From NCBI RefSeq assembly GCF_030143255.1, contig NZ_JARJNR010000001.1:434001-498000 (forward strand): a stretch of 64,000 bases of DNA, in the 5' to 3' direction. Positions 21,397 through 61,210 of this stretch are shown one piece after another; position 1 is the stretch's first letter; each line of letters starts with the position of its first letter. The position numbers were made by a program, and so were the translations under genes. The stretch is from Frigidibacter sp. SD6-1 (lineage in GTDB: Bacteria; Pseudomonadota; Alphaproteobacteria; Rhodobacterales; Rhodobacteraceae). The notes under the pieces are model-generated. The model was not told the DNA's origin. It saw only the letters and a program-made list of their open reading frames with translations, and did no database searches.

Positions 21397-23556
<2,160 letters not shown>

Positions 23557-23883: not shown

Positions 23884-23963
23884 AAAAAAAAGGCCGAGAC
23901 AAGCTCGGCCCAAGTCCAACAGGGAGGTATGAACGGGGGGAGTTGCCTCGACCGCCGCCCATG
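23884..23963 (-). ncRNA. Predicted small RNA with anti-Shine-Dalgarno motifs
   Basis: In the 507-bp gap between purL and the LysR gene, a clean Rho-independent terminator stands alone on the minus strand: GGCCGAG-CTTGT-CTCGGCC (23910 to 23892) followed by eight T (23891-23884). About 55 nt upstream is a promoter-like CTTGAA (23998 to 23993), 17 bp, CTAGAT (23975 to 23970), similar to RpoH-type promoters of Rhodobacter. The ~80-nt transcript would carry ACTCCCCCC (23943 to 23935) and CCTCCC (23927 to 23922), framed by CAAC/GTTG, which can form a stem presenting both motifs in one loop. CU-rich anti-SD loops and heat-shock-sigma promoters are features of CuckooS-type RNAs in Rhodobacteraceae (recalled). 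The rest of the gap shows no gene. Confidence 0.55.
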
Positions 23964-24063
23964 AGCGTCATCTAGTGCCCGGGAATTCAGCGTTCAAGGA
24001 AAATCATGCTGCAGATGCAACATGGCCGTCATGCGTTGCGCGCATGCCTCACTTTCCGGCCTC

Positions 24064-24969
24064 TCAGGCAGCTTCCTCGCGCAGCTGGCGCTTGCGGTAG
24101 CTTGCGATCTCTTCCGAGACGAAATCGCGGAAGGCCGCGACGCGCTTGGATTGCCTGAGTTCCTCGGGGTAGGCGAGGAAGACCGGCACCTCTTCGCTTT
24201 CCACGTCCGGCAGGACCCGGACGAGATGCGGGAAGTCGGCGGTCAGATAATCGGGCAGAACCCCGATGCCGAGATGGTTCAGCACCGCCTGCAGCACGCC
24301 GAAGTAATTGTTCACCGTCAGCGTCGAGCGGATTTCATATTCCATCAGCCGCTGCACGAGGTCGGCGCCCGCCGCAACCTGCGGCGTATTGGGGTTTTGC
24401 GCGATCAGCCTGTGGGCGGAAATCTCTGACATCCGCTGCGGCGTTCCGTTCATCGACAGGTATTCCGGCGTTGCATAAAGCCGCATGCGGATGTTCATCA
24501 GCCGCCGCCGGATCAGGTCGGCCTGGCTGGGTTCCTTCATGCGGATGGCCACATCCGCCTCGCGCATCGGCAGGTCGAGGACGCGCTCTTCCAGCATCAG
24601 CTCGATCTTCAGGTCGGGATATTTCGCGTAAAGCTTCGGCAGGCGCGGCGCGAGCCAGAGCGTACCGAAACCCGTGGTCGTGGTGACCCTGAGGACGCCG
24701 AACACCTCTTCCTCGCTGTCGCGGATACGCGCGGCGGCGGCCTCGAGCCGGTTGTTCATCGACTTGGTCGCCTCGAACAGGAGTTCGCCCTGTTCGGTCA
24801 GAATCAGTCCGCGCGCATGGCGGTGGAAAAGCGTGGTGTCGAGGCTTTCCTCAAGCGCCCGAACCTGGCGGCTGACAGCCGACTGGCTGAGGTGCAGGAC
24901 ATCGCCCGCATGGGTCAGCGACCCCGCGTCCGCGACTGCATGAAATATCCTGAGCTTGTCCCAGTCCAT
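24064..24969 (-). CDS. LysR family transcriptional regulator (divergent from the indolepyruvate oxidoreductase gene)
   Basis: 301 residues from ATG 24969 (MDWDKLRIFHAVADAGSLTHAGDVLHLSQSAVSRQVRALEE), a typical LysR start; the ribosome site is weak and an ATG at 25008 exists. The effector domain follows (VFGVLRVTTTTGFGTLWLAPRL). It is divergent from the fused indolepyruvate ferredoxin oxidoreductase gene across 199 bp that contain a T-N11-A palindrome over a good promoter for that gene. Control of the oxidoreductase is inferred from this arrangement. The predicted small RNA follows downstream on the same strand and appears to be a separate unit. Confidence 0.9.
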   Translation of the reverse strand: MDWDKLRIFHAVADAGSLTHAGDVLHLSQSAVSRQVRALEESLDTTLFHRHARGLILTEQGELLFEATKSMNNRLEAAAARIRDSEEEVFGVLRVTTTTGFGTLWLAPRLPKLYAKYPDLKIELMLEERVLDLPMREADVAIRMKEPSQADLIRRRLMNIRMRLYATPEYLSMNGTPQRMSEISAHRLIAQNPNTPQVAAGADLVQRLMEYEIRSTLTVNNYFGVLQAVLNHLGIGVLPDYLTADFPHLVRVLPDVESEEVPVFLAYPEELRQSKRVAAFRDFVSEEIASYRKRQLREEAA

Positions 24970-25110
24970 CCGCTTCGATCCGTTCGTATTCCCGCCCGCC
25001 CGCCGCATTTTCTGACTGCGGATGGTGGAAGGTGCGATTGCCCGCACTGATAGCCCGAAAGCAGATAGTCACCAAAGCCAAATATGGAAAGGGTCTGACA
25101 AATCTCTTTA

Positions 25111-25136
25111 TTGGTCAGCAATTATGACCTATACTG
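25111..25136 (+). promoter_or_regulatory. Promoter and LysR-type box of the indolepyruvate oxidoreductase gene
   Basis: GGTCA-N7-TGACC (25114-25130) contains a T-N11-A core, and TATACT (25131-25136) is a 5/6 match to the -10 hexamer. A start near 25143 would put the box at about -21 and give a leader of some 26 nt to ATG 25169, excluding the earlier in-frame ATG at 25124 as the start. Confidence 0.45.
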
Positions 25137-25168
25137 ACGAAGCCAGCAGCATCGCCGGGGAGGCCAGG

Positions 25169-28100
25169 ATGACGCGCCAGGACATTTCGCTTTCCGACAA
25201 GTTCGACCTTTCCAAATCTCCCGTATTGATGAACGGCACTCAGGCTCTGGTACGGCTGATGCTGATGCAGAAGGCCCGCGACCGGGCGGCGGGACTGAAC
25301 ACGGCGGGCTATGTCACCGGTTATCGCGGATCGCCCCTTGGCGCGGTCGACCTGCAGATGGGGCGCGAGGAGAAGCGGCTGAAGGAGGCCGATGTGCTCT
25401 TTCAGCCCGGCCTGAACGAGGATCTGGCCGCGACAGCGGTCTGGGGCACGCAGCAGGCCGAGATGCGCGGCGAGGGCAAGTATGACGGGGTCTTCGCCCT
25501 TTGGTATGGCAAGGGGCCCGGGGTGGACCGGTCGGGCGATGTGATGCGGCATGCCAACATGGCCGGAACCTCGCCCCATGGCGGGGTCATCATGGCGATG
25601 GGGGACGATCACACGGGTGAAAGCTCGACCGTGCTGCACCAGTCGGACTGGGCGATGGTCGACGCCTATATTCCGGTGGTTTCTCCCGCCGGGGTGCAGG
25701 AAATCCTCGATTACGGGCTTTATGCCTGGGCTTTGTCGCGCTTTGCCGGTGTCTGGGTCGGCCTGAAGACGATGAAGGACACGGTCGAGGCGACGTCGGT
25801 CGTCGATGGCGACCCGTTTCGGCTGTCCTTCGTCAACCCGGATTTCCCGATGCCCGAAGGCGGGCTGAATATCCGTGTCGGCGACACGCCGGTCGCGCAA
25901 GAAGCCCGCATGATCGACTACAAGCGCTTCGCTGCCGAGGCTTTCGCGCGGGCGAACCGCATCGACAAACGGGTCTGGGGCCGGTCGGGCGCCAAGATCG
26001 GCTTCGTGGCGGCGGGCAAGAACTGGCTCGACCTTACCCACGCGCTTGATCTCTTGGGGATCGACGCGGGAGAAGCCGAGCGGCTGGGAATCACCACCTA
26101 CAAGGTCGGCCAGACCTTCCCGCTCGACATGACCTCGTTCCACGAATGGGCCGAAGGGCTGGACCTGATCGTGGTGGTCGAGGAAAAGCGCAAGCTTCTG
26201 GAAGTGCAGATCAAGGAAGCGATCTTCGACGACCGCCGGGGCCGCCGCGTCTATGGCTGGTACAAGGGCGGCGCGGGCGGCATGCATAGGGAAGAGCTGT
26301 TCCCGACCCGCTATGCGCTTGACCCGATCATGATCGCCGAAAAGATCGGCGGCATCCTGATCGAGGAGGGGCGCGGCACCGACGAGGTGAAGAAGGGCCT
26401 CGCCGCGATCGCAGAGGCGCAGCGCGCCGACAATGCCCCCGAGATCATCGCGCGCAAGCCCTGGTTCTGTTCGGGCTGTCCGCACAATTCCTCGACCCGC
26501 CTGCCCGAGGGCAGCCGCGCCTATGCGGGGATCGGCTGCCACTACATGGTGCAGTGGATGGACCGCGACACGGTCGGCTTCACGCAGATGGGCGGCGAGG
26601 GCGCGAACTGGGTGGGCGAGGCGCCGTTCTCGAAACGCGGCCATGTTTTCCAGAACCTCGGCGACGGCACCTACAACCATTCCGGTTCGCTCGCCATCCG
26701 CGCGGCTTTGGCGGCGGGGACGACCATCACCTACAAGATCCTCTACAATGACGCGGTCGCCATGACCGGAGGCCAGAAGGCTGAAGGTGACCTGAGCGCC
26801 CCGCAGATCGCGCGCGAGCTTCTGGCGATGGGCGTGAAACATGTAGCGCTGGTCTATGATCCGAAAGAGGCGGTCGAGCTTTCAGACTTCCCGCCCGGAA
26901 TCGAAGTGCATCTGCGCGACGATCTGATGACGGTTCAGGAGAAATATCGCGAGATCAAGGGCGTATCGGCCATTCTTTACGTCCAGACCTGCGCCGCCGA
27001 AAAGCGCCGACGGCGCAAGAAGGGCACCTTTCCCGATCCCGACCGGCGGGTCTTCATCAACACCGATGTCTGCGAGGGCTGCGGCGATTGCTCGGTCCAA
27101 TCGAACTGTGTCTCGATCGTGCCGGTCGAGACCGAACTCGGCACCAAGCGCGCCATCGATCAGTCGTCCTGCAACAAGGATTTCTCCTGCCTCAAGGGTT
27201 TCTGCCCCTCTTTCGTGACCGTTGCTGGCGGCACGGTCCGCAAGGCAGGCGCCAAGGGTTTCCGTCTGCCCGACCTGCCCGAACCGGTGCTTCCCGCCAT
27301 CCGGGGCACGCACAACACCGTGCTGACCGGGGTTGGCGGCACCGGCGTGGTGACAGTCGGCGCGGTTCTGGCGATGGCTGCCCACCTCGACGGCAAGGGG
27401 GCCGGCATGATGGAAATGGCGGGCCTCGCCCAGAAGGGTGGCGCGGTTCATATCCACCTGAGGATCGCCGAGCAACCTTCTGATATTTCGGCAATCCGCG
27501 TCGCAACAGGCGAGGCCGACTGCGTGATTGGCGGCGATCTGGTGGTGACGGCGGGGGCCAAGACGCTCGGCCTCATGACCGAAGGGCGGACGGGCGCGGT
27601 GGTGAATGGCCATGAGATCGTCACCGGCGATTTCACCAGGAACCGCGACTTCAAGCTGCCCGCCGACCGGCTGCGCCTGTCGCTGGAGGCGCGGCTGAGG
27701 GAGGGTGTCAGTTTCTTCGATGCCTCGACGCTTGCCGAAAAGCTTCTCGGCGACTCGATCTATTCCAACATGATCGTGCTTGGCGCCGCCTGGCAACGCG
27801 GGCTCCTGCCCCTGTCGCGTCAGGCGATCCTGCGGGCGGTGGAACTGAACGGCGCTGCCGTGAAGGGCAACCAAAGCGCCTTTGAAATCGGTCGCTGGGC
27901 GGCGGTCGATCCGGCAGCGGTTGCCGAGGTTACGCTCGAACAGTCAAACAAGCCTCTGACTCTGAAAGAGAAAATCGAAGATCGTGCGCGACGCCTGACC
28001 GAGTATCAGGACGCAGCCTACGCGGAAAGGTACCGCCGCCTGGTGGCCTCGGCGCCCGAAGCGCTGAAGGCGGCGGTTGCCGAGAATTTCTACAAGCTCC

Positions 28101-28582
28101 TCGCCTACAAGGATGAATATGAGGTGGCGCGGCTGCATCTGACGAGCGCCGATCGGGCGCGCGCGATCTTTGACGGCGATCTGAAGCTGTCGTTTCACCT
28201 GGCGCCGCCGCTTCTCGGTGGCAAGGGGCCCGAGGGACGACCGAAGAAGCGCGAATTCGGCGCCTGGATGCTGCCGGTCTTCAGGCTTCTCGCGCGGATG
28301 AAGCGGTTACGCGGTACGGCGTTCGACCCGTTCGGGCGCACCGCGGAGCGGCGGACGGAACGGGCGCTGATTGCCCAGTACGAGGAAGACATGGTGTTCG
28401 CTTTCTCCCGATTGTCGCCGACGACCGAGGCGCCCGCGCTGGCGCTCGCCGGTCTGCCGCAGGATATCCGCGGTTATGGCCCGGTGAAGGAAGCCTCGGT
28501 GAAGATGGCCGCAGCGCGGCGCGAGGAGTTGCTGACGGTGATCCGCGCGGGCGGCGCGCCCACCCGGCAGGCGGCGGAATAG
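25169..28582 (+). CDS. Indolepyruvate ferredoxin oxidoreductase, fused subunits
   Basis: 1137 residues from ATG 25169, with GGGGAGG upstream. It oxidatively decarboxylates aryl-2-oxoacids such as indolepyruvate to acyl-CoA, reducing ferredoxin, in aromatic amino acid breakdown. Order: an N-terminal pyrimidine-type domain ([18 protein letters not shown]), a central thiamine-diphosphate domain with [16 protein letters not shown] and GIGCHYM, then [10 protein letters not shown]; a cysteine-rich Fe-S region ([13 protein letters not shown], then [16 protein letters not shown]); and the gamma-type domain ([42 protein letters not shown]). The alpha, beta and gamma parts are one chain, as in many proteobacteria, about 1140 residues. 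The nearby LysR gene is the likely regulator. Confidence 0.93.
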
Positions 28583-38530: not shown

Positions 38531-38732
38531 CGCGCCACAGGCTTGACCGCAAAAGCCGACCGGCGCTATCAAGGCGCCGGTCCGCAGTTCACCAAGGCGT
38601 TGCCGATCCGGCCCGGCCGGAATGCTAAACCTGCATCTCTTGAGCGAGGCGTTTCTTTCACACGCTCTCACCGTCAAGCGGCGACCGGCGGACTTTCCCC
38701 CGAAAGCGGAGCGTACCGAAAGGACGTAACCC

Positions 38733-61133: not shown

Positions 61134-61210
61134 CGGGGCGTAGCGCAGTCTGGTAGCGCGACGGTTTTGGGTACCGTAGGCCGGGGGTTCGAATCCTCTC
61201 GCCCCGACCA
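61134..61210 (+). tRNA. tRNA-Pro (anticodon TGG)
   Basis: 77 nt including the encoded CCA end. The acceptor stem is CGGGGCG with CGCCCCG (7 bp), the D-arm contains TAGCGCAGTCTGGTAGC, the anticodon loop reads TTTTGGGTA with anticodon TGG, and the T-arm has GGTTCGAATCC. All expected invariant positions are present. Confidence 0.95.

Follow-up and report, generated by a model that had tools for sequence, protein, structure and literature searches.

Between a LysR-type regulator gene and purL, the Frigidibacter sp. SD6-1 genome contains a minus-strand intrinsic terminator. The question raised by this locus is whether the terminator belongs to a small RNA (sRNA) gene and, if so, which sRNA it is, what it acts on, and whether the neighboring regulator controls it. 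An earlier sequence-only reading of the 64,000-nucleotide stretch analyzed here (the window) had proposed an sRNA gene that stands by itself and has an RpoH-like promoter, regarded it as an orphan, and placed it among the CuckooS/CcsR-type RNAs. Judged by sequence and gene order, the gene is a sorY orthologue, a known kind of stress sRNA. We consider it highly probable that the account as a whole holds, namely, a sorY gene with an RpoH-type promoter, a transcript that would act through pairing of its linker, with takP first, and an upstream LysR-type regulator that probably sets its expression.

RESULTS

The locus contains a sorY orthologue

The features of the locus are as follows.

23884 to 23963, minus strand: SorY-orthologue sRNA gene, predicted transcript of ~80 nt (Rfam SorY 50.3 bits, E 4.6e-9 at 23884-23962; synteny)
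23929 to 23962, minus strand: 5' hairpin, including paired ACTCCCCCC (predicted fold)
23912 to 23928, minus strand: core seed ACCUCCCUGUUGGACUU in a single-stranded linker (predicted fold and conservation)
23884 to 23911, minus strand: intrinsic terminator with U8 tail (stem 23911-23891, eight T ending at 23884)
23993 to 23998, minus strand: -35 element CTTGAA (sequence)
23970 to 23975, minus strand: -10 element CTAGAT, 17-nt spacer to the -35 element (sequence)
24019 to 24035, minus strand: candidate LsrB/VtlR-type box CGCATGACGGCCATGTT, GCAT-N3-GG-N3-T (matrix from abcR promoters)
24005 to 24024, minus strand: second dyad CATGTTGCATCTGCAGCATG, a second LysR site or the lysR terminator (8-bp stem, then ATTTTCC)
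24064 to 24969, minus strand: LysR-type regulator gene, LsrB/VtlR counterpart, no cysteine (PDB match, reverse search, sequence)
21397 to 23556, minus strand: purL, start at 23556, conserved downstream neighbor (open reading frame [ORF])

The promoter elements and their spacing, the minus-strand terminator with its eight T, and the position between the LysR gene (24969-24064) and the start of purL were all found as the sequence-only reading had described them. The transcription start site (TSS) at 23963 was set 7 nt past the -10 element, a rule that reproduces the published R. sphaeroides TSS. A terminator-like match by itself is no more than chance, since 9 were found in 19 kb compared to 13.0 expected from shuffled sequences, with the sRNA's own terminator listed first. 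The whole element, unlike a lone terminator, is above chance by its Rfam SorY match of 50.3 bits (E = 4.6e-9). In the same permissive Rfam scan, the same bases also matched SorX (40.5 bits, E = 2.6e-8), and both matches were under their curated cutoffs. For SorY (RF02651), the gathering cutoff is 111 bits, which leaves the window gene outside curated membership. That cutoff was passed by 1 of 394 Rhodobacteraceae genomes, at G079:C4:1632645-1632727; because this match coincides with the published 5' end of R. sphaeroides SorY at position 1,632,642 (PMC6238624), G079 was taken to be the R. sphaeroides genome. At E <= 1e-8, the SorY model had matches in 224 of the 394 family genomes. A DNA search gave matches in 32 of 61 related genomes, 32 of 37 inside the Rhodobacteraceae and 0 of 24 outside.

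R. sphaeroides sorY is flanked by lysR and purL as in the window, and the proteins are 81% (LysR) and 90% (PurL) identical. The locus order lysR-sRNA-purL, the core ACCUCCCUGUUGGACUU, and the terminator type are all equal to those of R. sphaeroides, so the gene is not the orphan that it had been called, and it has an RpoH-type promoter of its own, in sequence form. Among the family loci, 29 of 30 from the DNA search and 28 of 30 from the SorY-model search have lysR inside the 1.5-kb flank, and purL was at most 1.5 kb away in 21 of the 30 loci from the DNA search. SorY of R. sphaeroides (RSs1543) has the core, the terminator, the CTTG-N17 promoter, the locus, and a predicted takP pairing in common with the window gene; it differs in the sequence of the 5' hairpin, and the window score is under the curated Rfam cutoff. 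SorX (RSs2461, Rfam RF02784) shares the CCUCCCUGUUGGAC core and the terminator type but is described as having another locus, a 3'-UTR origin, and potA as its target (PMC9438474). The Frigidibacter genome also contains a SorX-type gene just behind an OmpR-type regulator gene (L002), and because that gene sits elsewhere, the window gene is assigned to SorY rather than SorX. In one family genome, a second sRNA copy lies ~180 nt past the SorY counterpart (L029:1319-1362).

R. sphaeroides SorY is reported to have its own promoter and TSS (PMC6238624), and RpoHI/HII dependence and Hfq binding are described in the literature. By analogy with R. sphaeroides, we infer RpoHI/HII dependence, Hfq binding, and takP targeting for the window organism; the 3' end with its U8 tail is probably of the Hfq type. 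Elsewhere in the window, Rfam placed a COG3860 cis-regulatory RNA (RF02940) at 38578-38636 on the plus strand, with 56.4 bits and thus over its cutoff, and a tRNA gene lies at 61134-61207, also on the plus strand.

The linker is constant and the 5' hairpin varies among family loci

Sixty family loci were collected, 30 from the DNA search and 30 from the SorY-model search, and 55 were analyzed after the SorX-type L036, L050 (without an exact core), and the duplicates L056, L064, and L067 had been left out. The linker motif CCTCCCTGTTG was present in 59 of the 60 loci (30/30 from the DNA search and 29/30 from the SorY-model search). This is the free count, since the loci were picked by CCTCCCTGTTG and the constancy of its letters among the 55 is by construction. 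Beside the motif, A precedes it in all 55 loci, and it is followed by G in 54, by A, C, and T in 55 each, and by T in 53. The -35 element reads CTTG in 51 of 55 loci, the spacer is 17 nt in 45, and the commonest -10 form is CTAAAT. A promoter score of at least 11 was reached in 35 of 55 loci compared to 1 of 1,100 shuffles; the shuffled control was used because the scan takes the best site and its consensus was derived from the same loci. The sorY match and the recurrence of this promoter form among the family loci bear out the sequence-only reading where it proposed an sRNA gene standing by itself behind an RpoH-like promoter.

Hardly any two of the 5' parts share a sequence (54 distinct sequences among 55), yet at least 8 base pairs are predicted in 55 of 55, with a mean z of -4.0 against mononucleotide shuffles. 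RNAalifold on an alignment of 40 of 54 prepared sequences (A1) returned the terminator and a 2-pair helix alone; the 5' hairpin was missed because hairpins vary in length, and sequences were therefore folded individually. The 7-pair terminator stem was retained in 40 of 40 aligned sequences. The sequence-only reading had put two anti-Shine-Dalgarno motifs, ACTCCCCCC and CCTCCC, in one potential loop. Both are present, but in the predicted fold ACTCCCCCC is paired, as part of the 5' hairpin's 3' arm, and CCUCCC falls between this hairpin and the terminator, in the linker, which leaves one exposed motif instead of two. The mean predicted probability that CCUCCC is unpaired was 0.72 in the window and 0.65 over the 55 loci versus 0.43 for the whole molecule. 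No conservation of ACTCCCCCC was seen across the 40 aligned orthologues.

These features also bear on what else the locus might be. The sRNA is on the same strand as lysR and ~100 nt downstream of it, and its paralogue SorX is described as being of the 3'-UTR type (PMC9438474), as would suit a mere lysR mRNA terminator, the case that the sequence-only reading had named as its refutation, or a promoterless sRNA cut from the lysR 3' UTR. We regard this as improbable given that the CTTG promoter form recurs across the family loci, that the SorY 5' end is reported as a TSS in R. sphaeroides (PMC6238624), and that another hairpin lies right behind lysR. An ATG at the predicted 5' end might indicate that the transcript mainly encodes a small protein, but the 5' parts vary in both sequence and length while the linker and terminator are constant, and the frame continues through the terminator; we give this reading hardly any credence. 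The CuckooS/CcsR-type assignment of the sequence-only reading drew on the CU-rich anti-Shine-Dalgarno motif and the RpoH-like promoter, and CcsR1-4/cuckoo RNAs are indeed RpoH dependent and CU rich like SorY. CcsR/cuckoo RNAs show the motif in a hairpin loop, however, and the exposed motif here is in a linker. The top Rfam matches were SorY and SorX, and neither CcsR nor cuckoo appeared as a name among the 13 matches listed. The four CcsR homologues are described as lying behind ccaF1 and cotranscribed with it (PMC8307010), unlike the window gene between lysR and purL. With no ccaF1 neighbor, a motif in the linker, and a match to SorY in both sequence and locus, CcsR/cuckoo membership was ruled out, and we put its probability close to nil. 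The sorY assignment is the reading used below.

takP fits as a predicted target in the window genome

The target of SorY in R. sphaeroides is takP according to the literature. The TakP counterpart of the window genome (G000:C11:506742) had 2hzk as its best PDB match (E = 4.7e-132). We take 2hzk to be R. sphaeroides TakP. Upstream of the start codon, the takP leader contains CAACCGGGAGGTA, which complements the core save for one base. With that base left open, CAACNGGGAGGTA has 2 sites in the 3.9-Mb genome, sorY itself and the takP leader; the pattern was picked after the takP leader had been seen, and with one mismatch allowed anywhere, ~5 chance sites are estimated. When the sRNA-takP duplex energy was compared to that of shuffles, the fraction was 0.01 in the window genome and 0.03 in R. 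sphaeroides, where another TRAP leader (L314) equals takP with 0.03 as well. By these comparisons, the predicted pairing is strong in both genomes, and takP fits as a predicted target in the window genome.

Just 19 of 149 family genomes gave a TakP counterpart at E <= 1e-120, far below the number with SorY. takP is therefore not a family-wide target, and the conserved seed must have other targets. Twenty takP-like leaders paired moderately better than 10 other TRAP leaders (mean of -17.5 versus -14.8 kcal/mol), and the ungapped match was 10.5 versus 10.4 of 18. As candidate target sites, CAACAGGGAGG-N-ATG occurred in 156 of 198 family genomes compared to 28 of 198 for one permuted pattern, but they were dropped as target evidence because 18 of 30 inspected loci proved to be such sRNA genes read backwards. 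Several of the 12 ORFs left from that inspection look, by eye, like transport proteins. In the window genome, AACAGGGAGG-N-ATG occurs twice, once at the SorX-type gene and once at a phosphatase-like gene.

The upstream LysR is the LsrB/VtlR counterpart

The best PDB match of the window LysR was 9hh1, A. tumefaciens LsrB (E = 2.6e-72; runner-up, 7.7e-30). In the reverse search, LsrB had one match at E <= 1e-40 in the genome, which was the window LysR (5.6e-73). By this reciprocal best match, the window LysR is the genome's one clear LsrB/VtlR counterpart. LsrB is described as occurring solely in Rhizobiales in the report on 9HH1 (PMC11975290) and VtlR/LsrB as conserved in many Alphaproteobacteria in another (PMC7486931); in our search, 141 of 289 class genomes each had one LysR match at E <= 1e-70.

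A. tumefaciens LsrB is reported to have four cysteines, C144, C236, C244, and C273, that form two redox-active pairs (PMC11975290). Each was present in 0 of 55 in-family rows, among which the window LysR was counted twice, and the window LysR is cysteine free. Among Rhizobiaceae and their relatives, 79 of 80 rows have C144 and C273; of 106 other rows, 9 have C144 and 1 has C273. Since the four LsrB cysteines are absent, the LysR, if it controls sorY, would not sense oxidants by those thiols; the RpoH-type promoter is likely the stress input for sorY.

Divergent from lysR is a large gene, the plus-strand ORF at 25022-28582, which was within the flank in 40 of 60 SorY/SorX-type loci. We take it to resemble indolepyruvate ferredoxin oxidoreductase. 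Two loci from genomes titled Bacillus subtilis (L287) and Arenimonas (L243) are rhizobial lsrB loci with 69% and 93% identity, respectively, to A. tumefaciens LsrB; these assemblies are probably mislabeled or contaminated.

A candidate LsrB/VtlR-type box precedes sorY

The published VtlR box is GCAT-N3-TG-N3-T (PMC7486931). Using 46 distinct boxes from abcR promoters, we built a box matrix with no sorY promoters included. Over the 55 sorY loci, its mean score was 10.9, whereas shuffles averaged -4.9 and two control regions -8.7 and -9.3. In most loci, the site lay ~110 nt ahead of the core. The score beat all 50 of a locus's own shuffles in 34 of 55 loci and failed to do so in 21. The window box, which differs from the published box at one fixed letter, scored 8.4 against a mean of -1.7 and a best of 11.2 for its own shuffles, and the R. 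sphaeroides box, at 9.8, was above the shuffle mean and below the best shuffle, 12.4. Because neither of these scores exceeds its own best shuffle, the support for the box is collective. At 69 other lsrB-linked loci, the mean was 5.0 versus -5.9, and the shuffle fraction was at most 0.05 in 47 of 69, with the position varying. The pattern GCATRNCKGNNATGY had 15 sites in the window organism's own genome, one of them that of sorY, and 0 for the reversed pattern; these could include further LysR targets.

The conserved upstream dyad might instead be the lysR terminator or the site of an unrelated factor, with no control of sorY by LysR, a reading that we find rather unlikely. The 8-bp stem followed by ATTTTCC at 24024-24005 would suit a terminator, one fixed letter of the published box is changed in the window and at many of the 55 sorY loci, and the window, R. 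sphaeroides, and 21 of the 55 loci do not exceed their best shuffles. RpoH alone could drive sorY, and we know of no experiment that ties LysR to sorY. Even the link between AbcR and LsrB varies, since AbcR1 alone depends on VtlR in A. tumefaciens and the S. meliloti reports disagree (PMC7486931, PMC8844928). Against this stand the abcR-trained matrix, with its mean far above shuffles and control regions at about -110 over the 55 loci, and the low shuffle fractions at most lsrB-linked loci of other families, where the position varies. Control by LysR is the reading that we retain: LysR probably sets sorY expression via the candidate box at 24035-24019, and for any of the Rhodobacteraceae, it is from sequence that we infer such control.

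A predicted lsrB-linked sRNA occurs across the class

The linkage was assessed starting from the 141 class genomes with a LysR match, of which 110 loci were fetched (the 31 left unfetched were near-duplicate, contig-edge, or low-scoring) and 4 in-family loci were excluded to give 106; at a few of the class loci, the contig ends before 1,200 nt. Within 1,200 nt downstream of lysR and on its strand, CCTCCCTGTT was found in 60 of the 106 loci outside the Rhodobacteraceae, compared to 0 of 106 each for the opposite strand, upstream, and upstream opposite. The corresponding counts for CCTCCCTG were 69 downstream on the lysR strand, 0 opposite, 0 upstream, and 3 upstream opposite, which leaves 37 of 106 class loci without it downstream of LysR. 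A run of at least four T followed CCTCCCTG within 62 nt in 68 of the 69 loci. Several class loci have two or three copies of the predicted sRNA core. Core and terminator stand in tandem behind one lysR three times at L076 and twice each at L074 and L083, which recalls the AbcR1/AbcR2 tandem.

Rfam on 18 class loci gave subthreshold matches to SorX, SorY, and suhB, one SorX match just above its cutoff, and one subthreshold match to an unrelated family. The mmgR/suhB family (RF00519), which is in the same Rfam clan as ar15, shows a subthreshold likeness to the window gene (21.2 bits) and reaches up to 35.1 bits at lsrB-linked loci of other families, under its 41-bit cutoff in the window and all 18 loci. 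A sequence model, R1, was made from an alignment of 48 of 68 class sRNA references (A2), none from the Rhodobacteraceae; RNAalifold predicted no pairs for this class-wide alignment, so the model contains sequence only, and its matches are mainly to core and terminator. In the window, R1 finds the sRNA gene (E = 2.3e-6) as the sole match in 64 kb at E <= 10. It also matched the SorX-type gene and 53 of 53 SorY loci, covering mainly core and terminator. No match was obtained at 20 loci of Rhizobiaceae and relatives or at 15 control loci.

At the same position in Rhizobiaceae and relatives is AbcR (ar15), with 67 to 121 bits in 5 of 6 scanned loci; there, 80 of 80 loci lack CCTCCCTGTT, and 76 of 80 have CCTCCC downstream. 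No ar15 (RF02345) match was listed in the window at E <= 10 in the Rfam scan. In A. tumefaciens and S. meliloti, abcR1/2 are described directly downstream of vtlR/lsrB; AbcR1 is reported as VtlR dependent and AbcR2 as independent in A. tumefaciens, and one S. meliloti paper reports no LsrB effect (PMC7486931). A later S. meliloti paper reports AbcR1 as dependent on LsrB and AbcR2 on RpoH1 (PMC8844928). Taken together, the sequence comparisons suggest that the lsrB-sRNA pairing is old and present in many Alphaproteobacteria.

DISCUSSION

In the mechanism that we propose, a trans-acting sRNA of ~80 nt would start near 23963 at an RpoH-type promoter and stop at its own terminator. Three parts make up the predicted molecule: a 5' hairpin that varies among species, the constant single-stranded linker ACCUCCCUGUUGGACUU, and a terminator whose U8 tail is probably bound by Hfq. 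The linker would pair with Shine-Dalgarno regions and the bases upstream of them, first of all in takP, a TRAP keto-acid/malate uptake gene, and this pairing would lower mRNA translation or stability, with less substrate import under oxidative or heat stress as the outcome. The upstream LysR, the LsrB/VtlR counterpart, would probably set sorY expression via the box at 24035-24019.

AbcR1/AbcR2 resemble SorY in lying directly downstream of an lsrB/vtlR counterpart. According to the sources cited above, the likeness extends to a VtlR box upstream (AbcR1), for which sorY has a candidate counterpart, to anti-Shine-Dalgarno motifs, Hfq, and transporter targets, and the reported RpoH1 dependence of S. 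meliloti AbcR2 is a further one (PMC8844928). The two have the locus and, over the sorY loci taken together, a box-like site in common, but no sequence match between them was detected; AbcR, unlike SorY, has a second motif in a hairpin loop, and the LsrB linked to AbcR carries redox cysteines. We lean slightly toward the view that sorY represents, in the Rhodobacteraceae, an ancestral alphaproteobacterial module made up of an LsrB-type LysR and an adjacent anti-Shine-Dalgarno sRNA, which the regulator turns on and which silences nutrient uptake. Under this proposal, the module would have become VtlR-AbcR in Rhizobiaceae and would be represented in many other families by an sRNA that has yet to be named (typically ...ACGUCUCCCAGACGUGAAGCCUCCCUGUUCAACUU-terminator, at some loci in tandem). 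In the Rhodobacteraceae, the cysteines would have gone and the RpoH promoter would have taken over the stress input, while the box stayed.

Our literature search gave no paper joining SorX/SorY with AbcR/LsrB, apart from two matches that look like chance words, and a remark in the original SorY/SorX papers is possible. It likewise gave no paper combining mmgR, SorX, SorY, ar15, LsrB, and Rhodobacterales three at a time and none with the sequence strings tried. The gene itself is of a known kind; the surprising part is the tie of sorY to LsrB and to a class-wide, largely unannotated sRNA family, and Rfam's SorY cutoff passes just 1 of 394 genomes even within the Rhodobacteraceae. The result bears on the disagreement in print over whether LsrB is unique to Rhizobiales (PMC11975290) or found in many Alphaproteobacteria (PMC7486931). 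If true, the wider result would join the Rhodobacter SorX/SorY and rhizobial VtlR-AbcR literatures, and it would offer a natural experiment in which a redox-sensing regulator and a heat shock sigma factor have swapped places before one sRNA.
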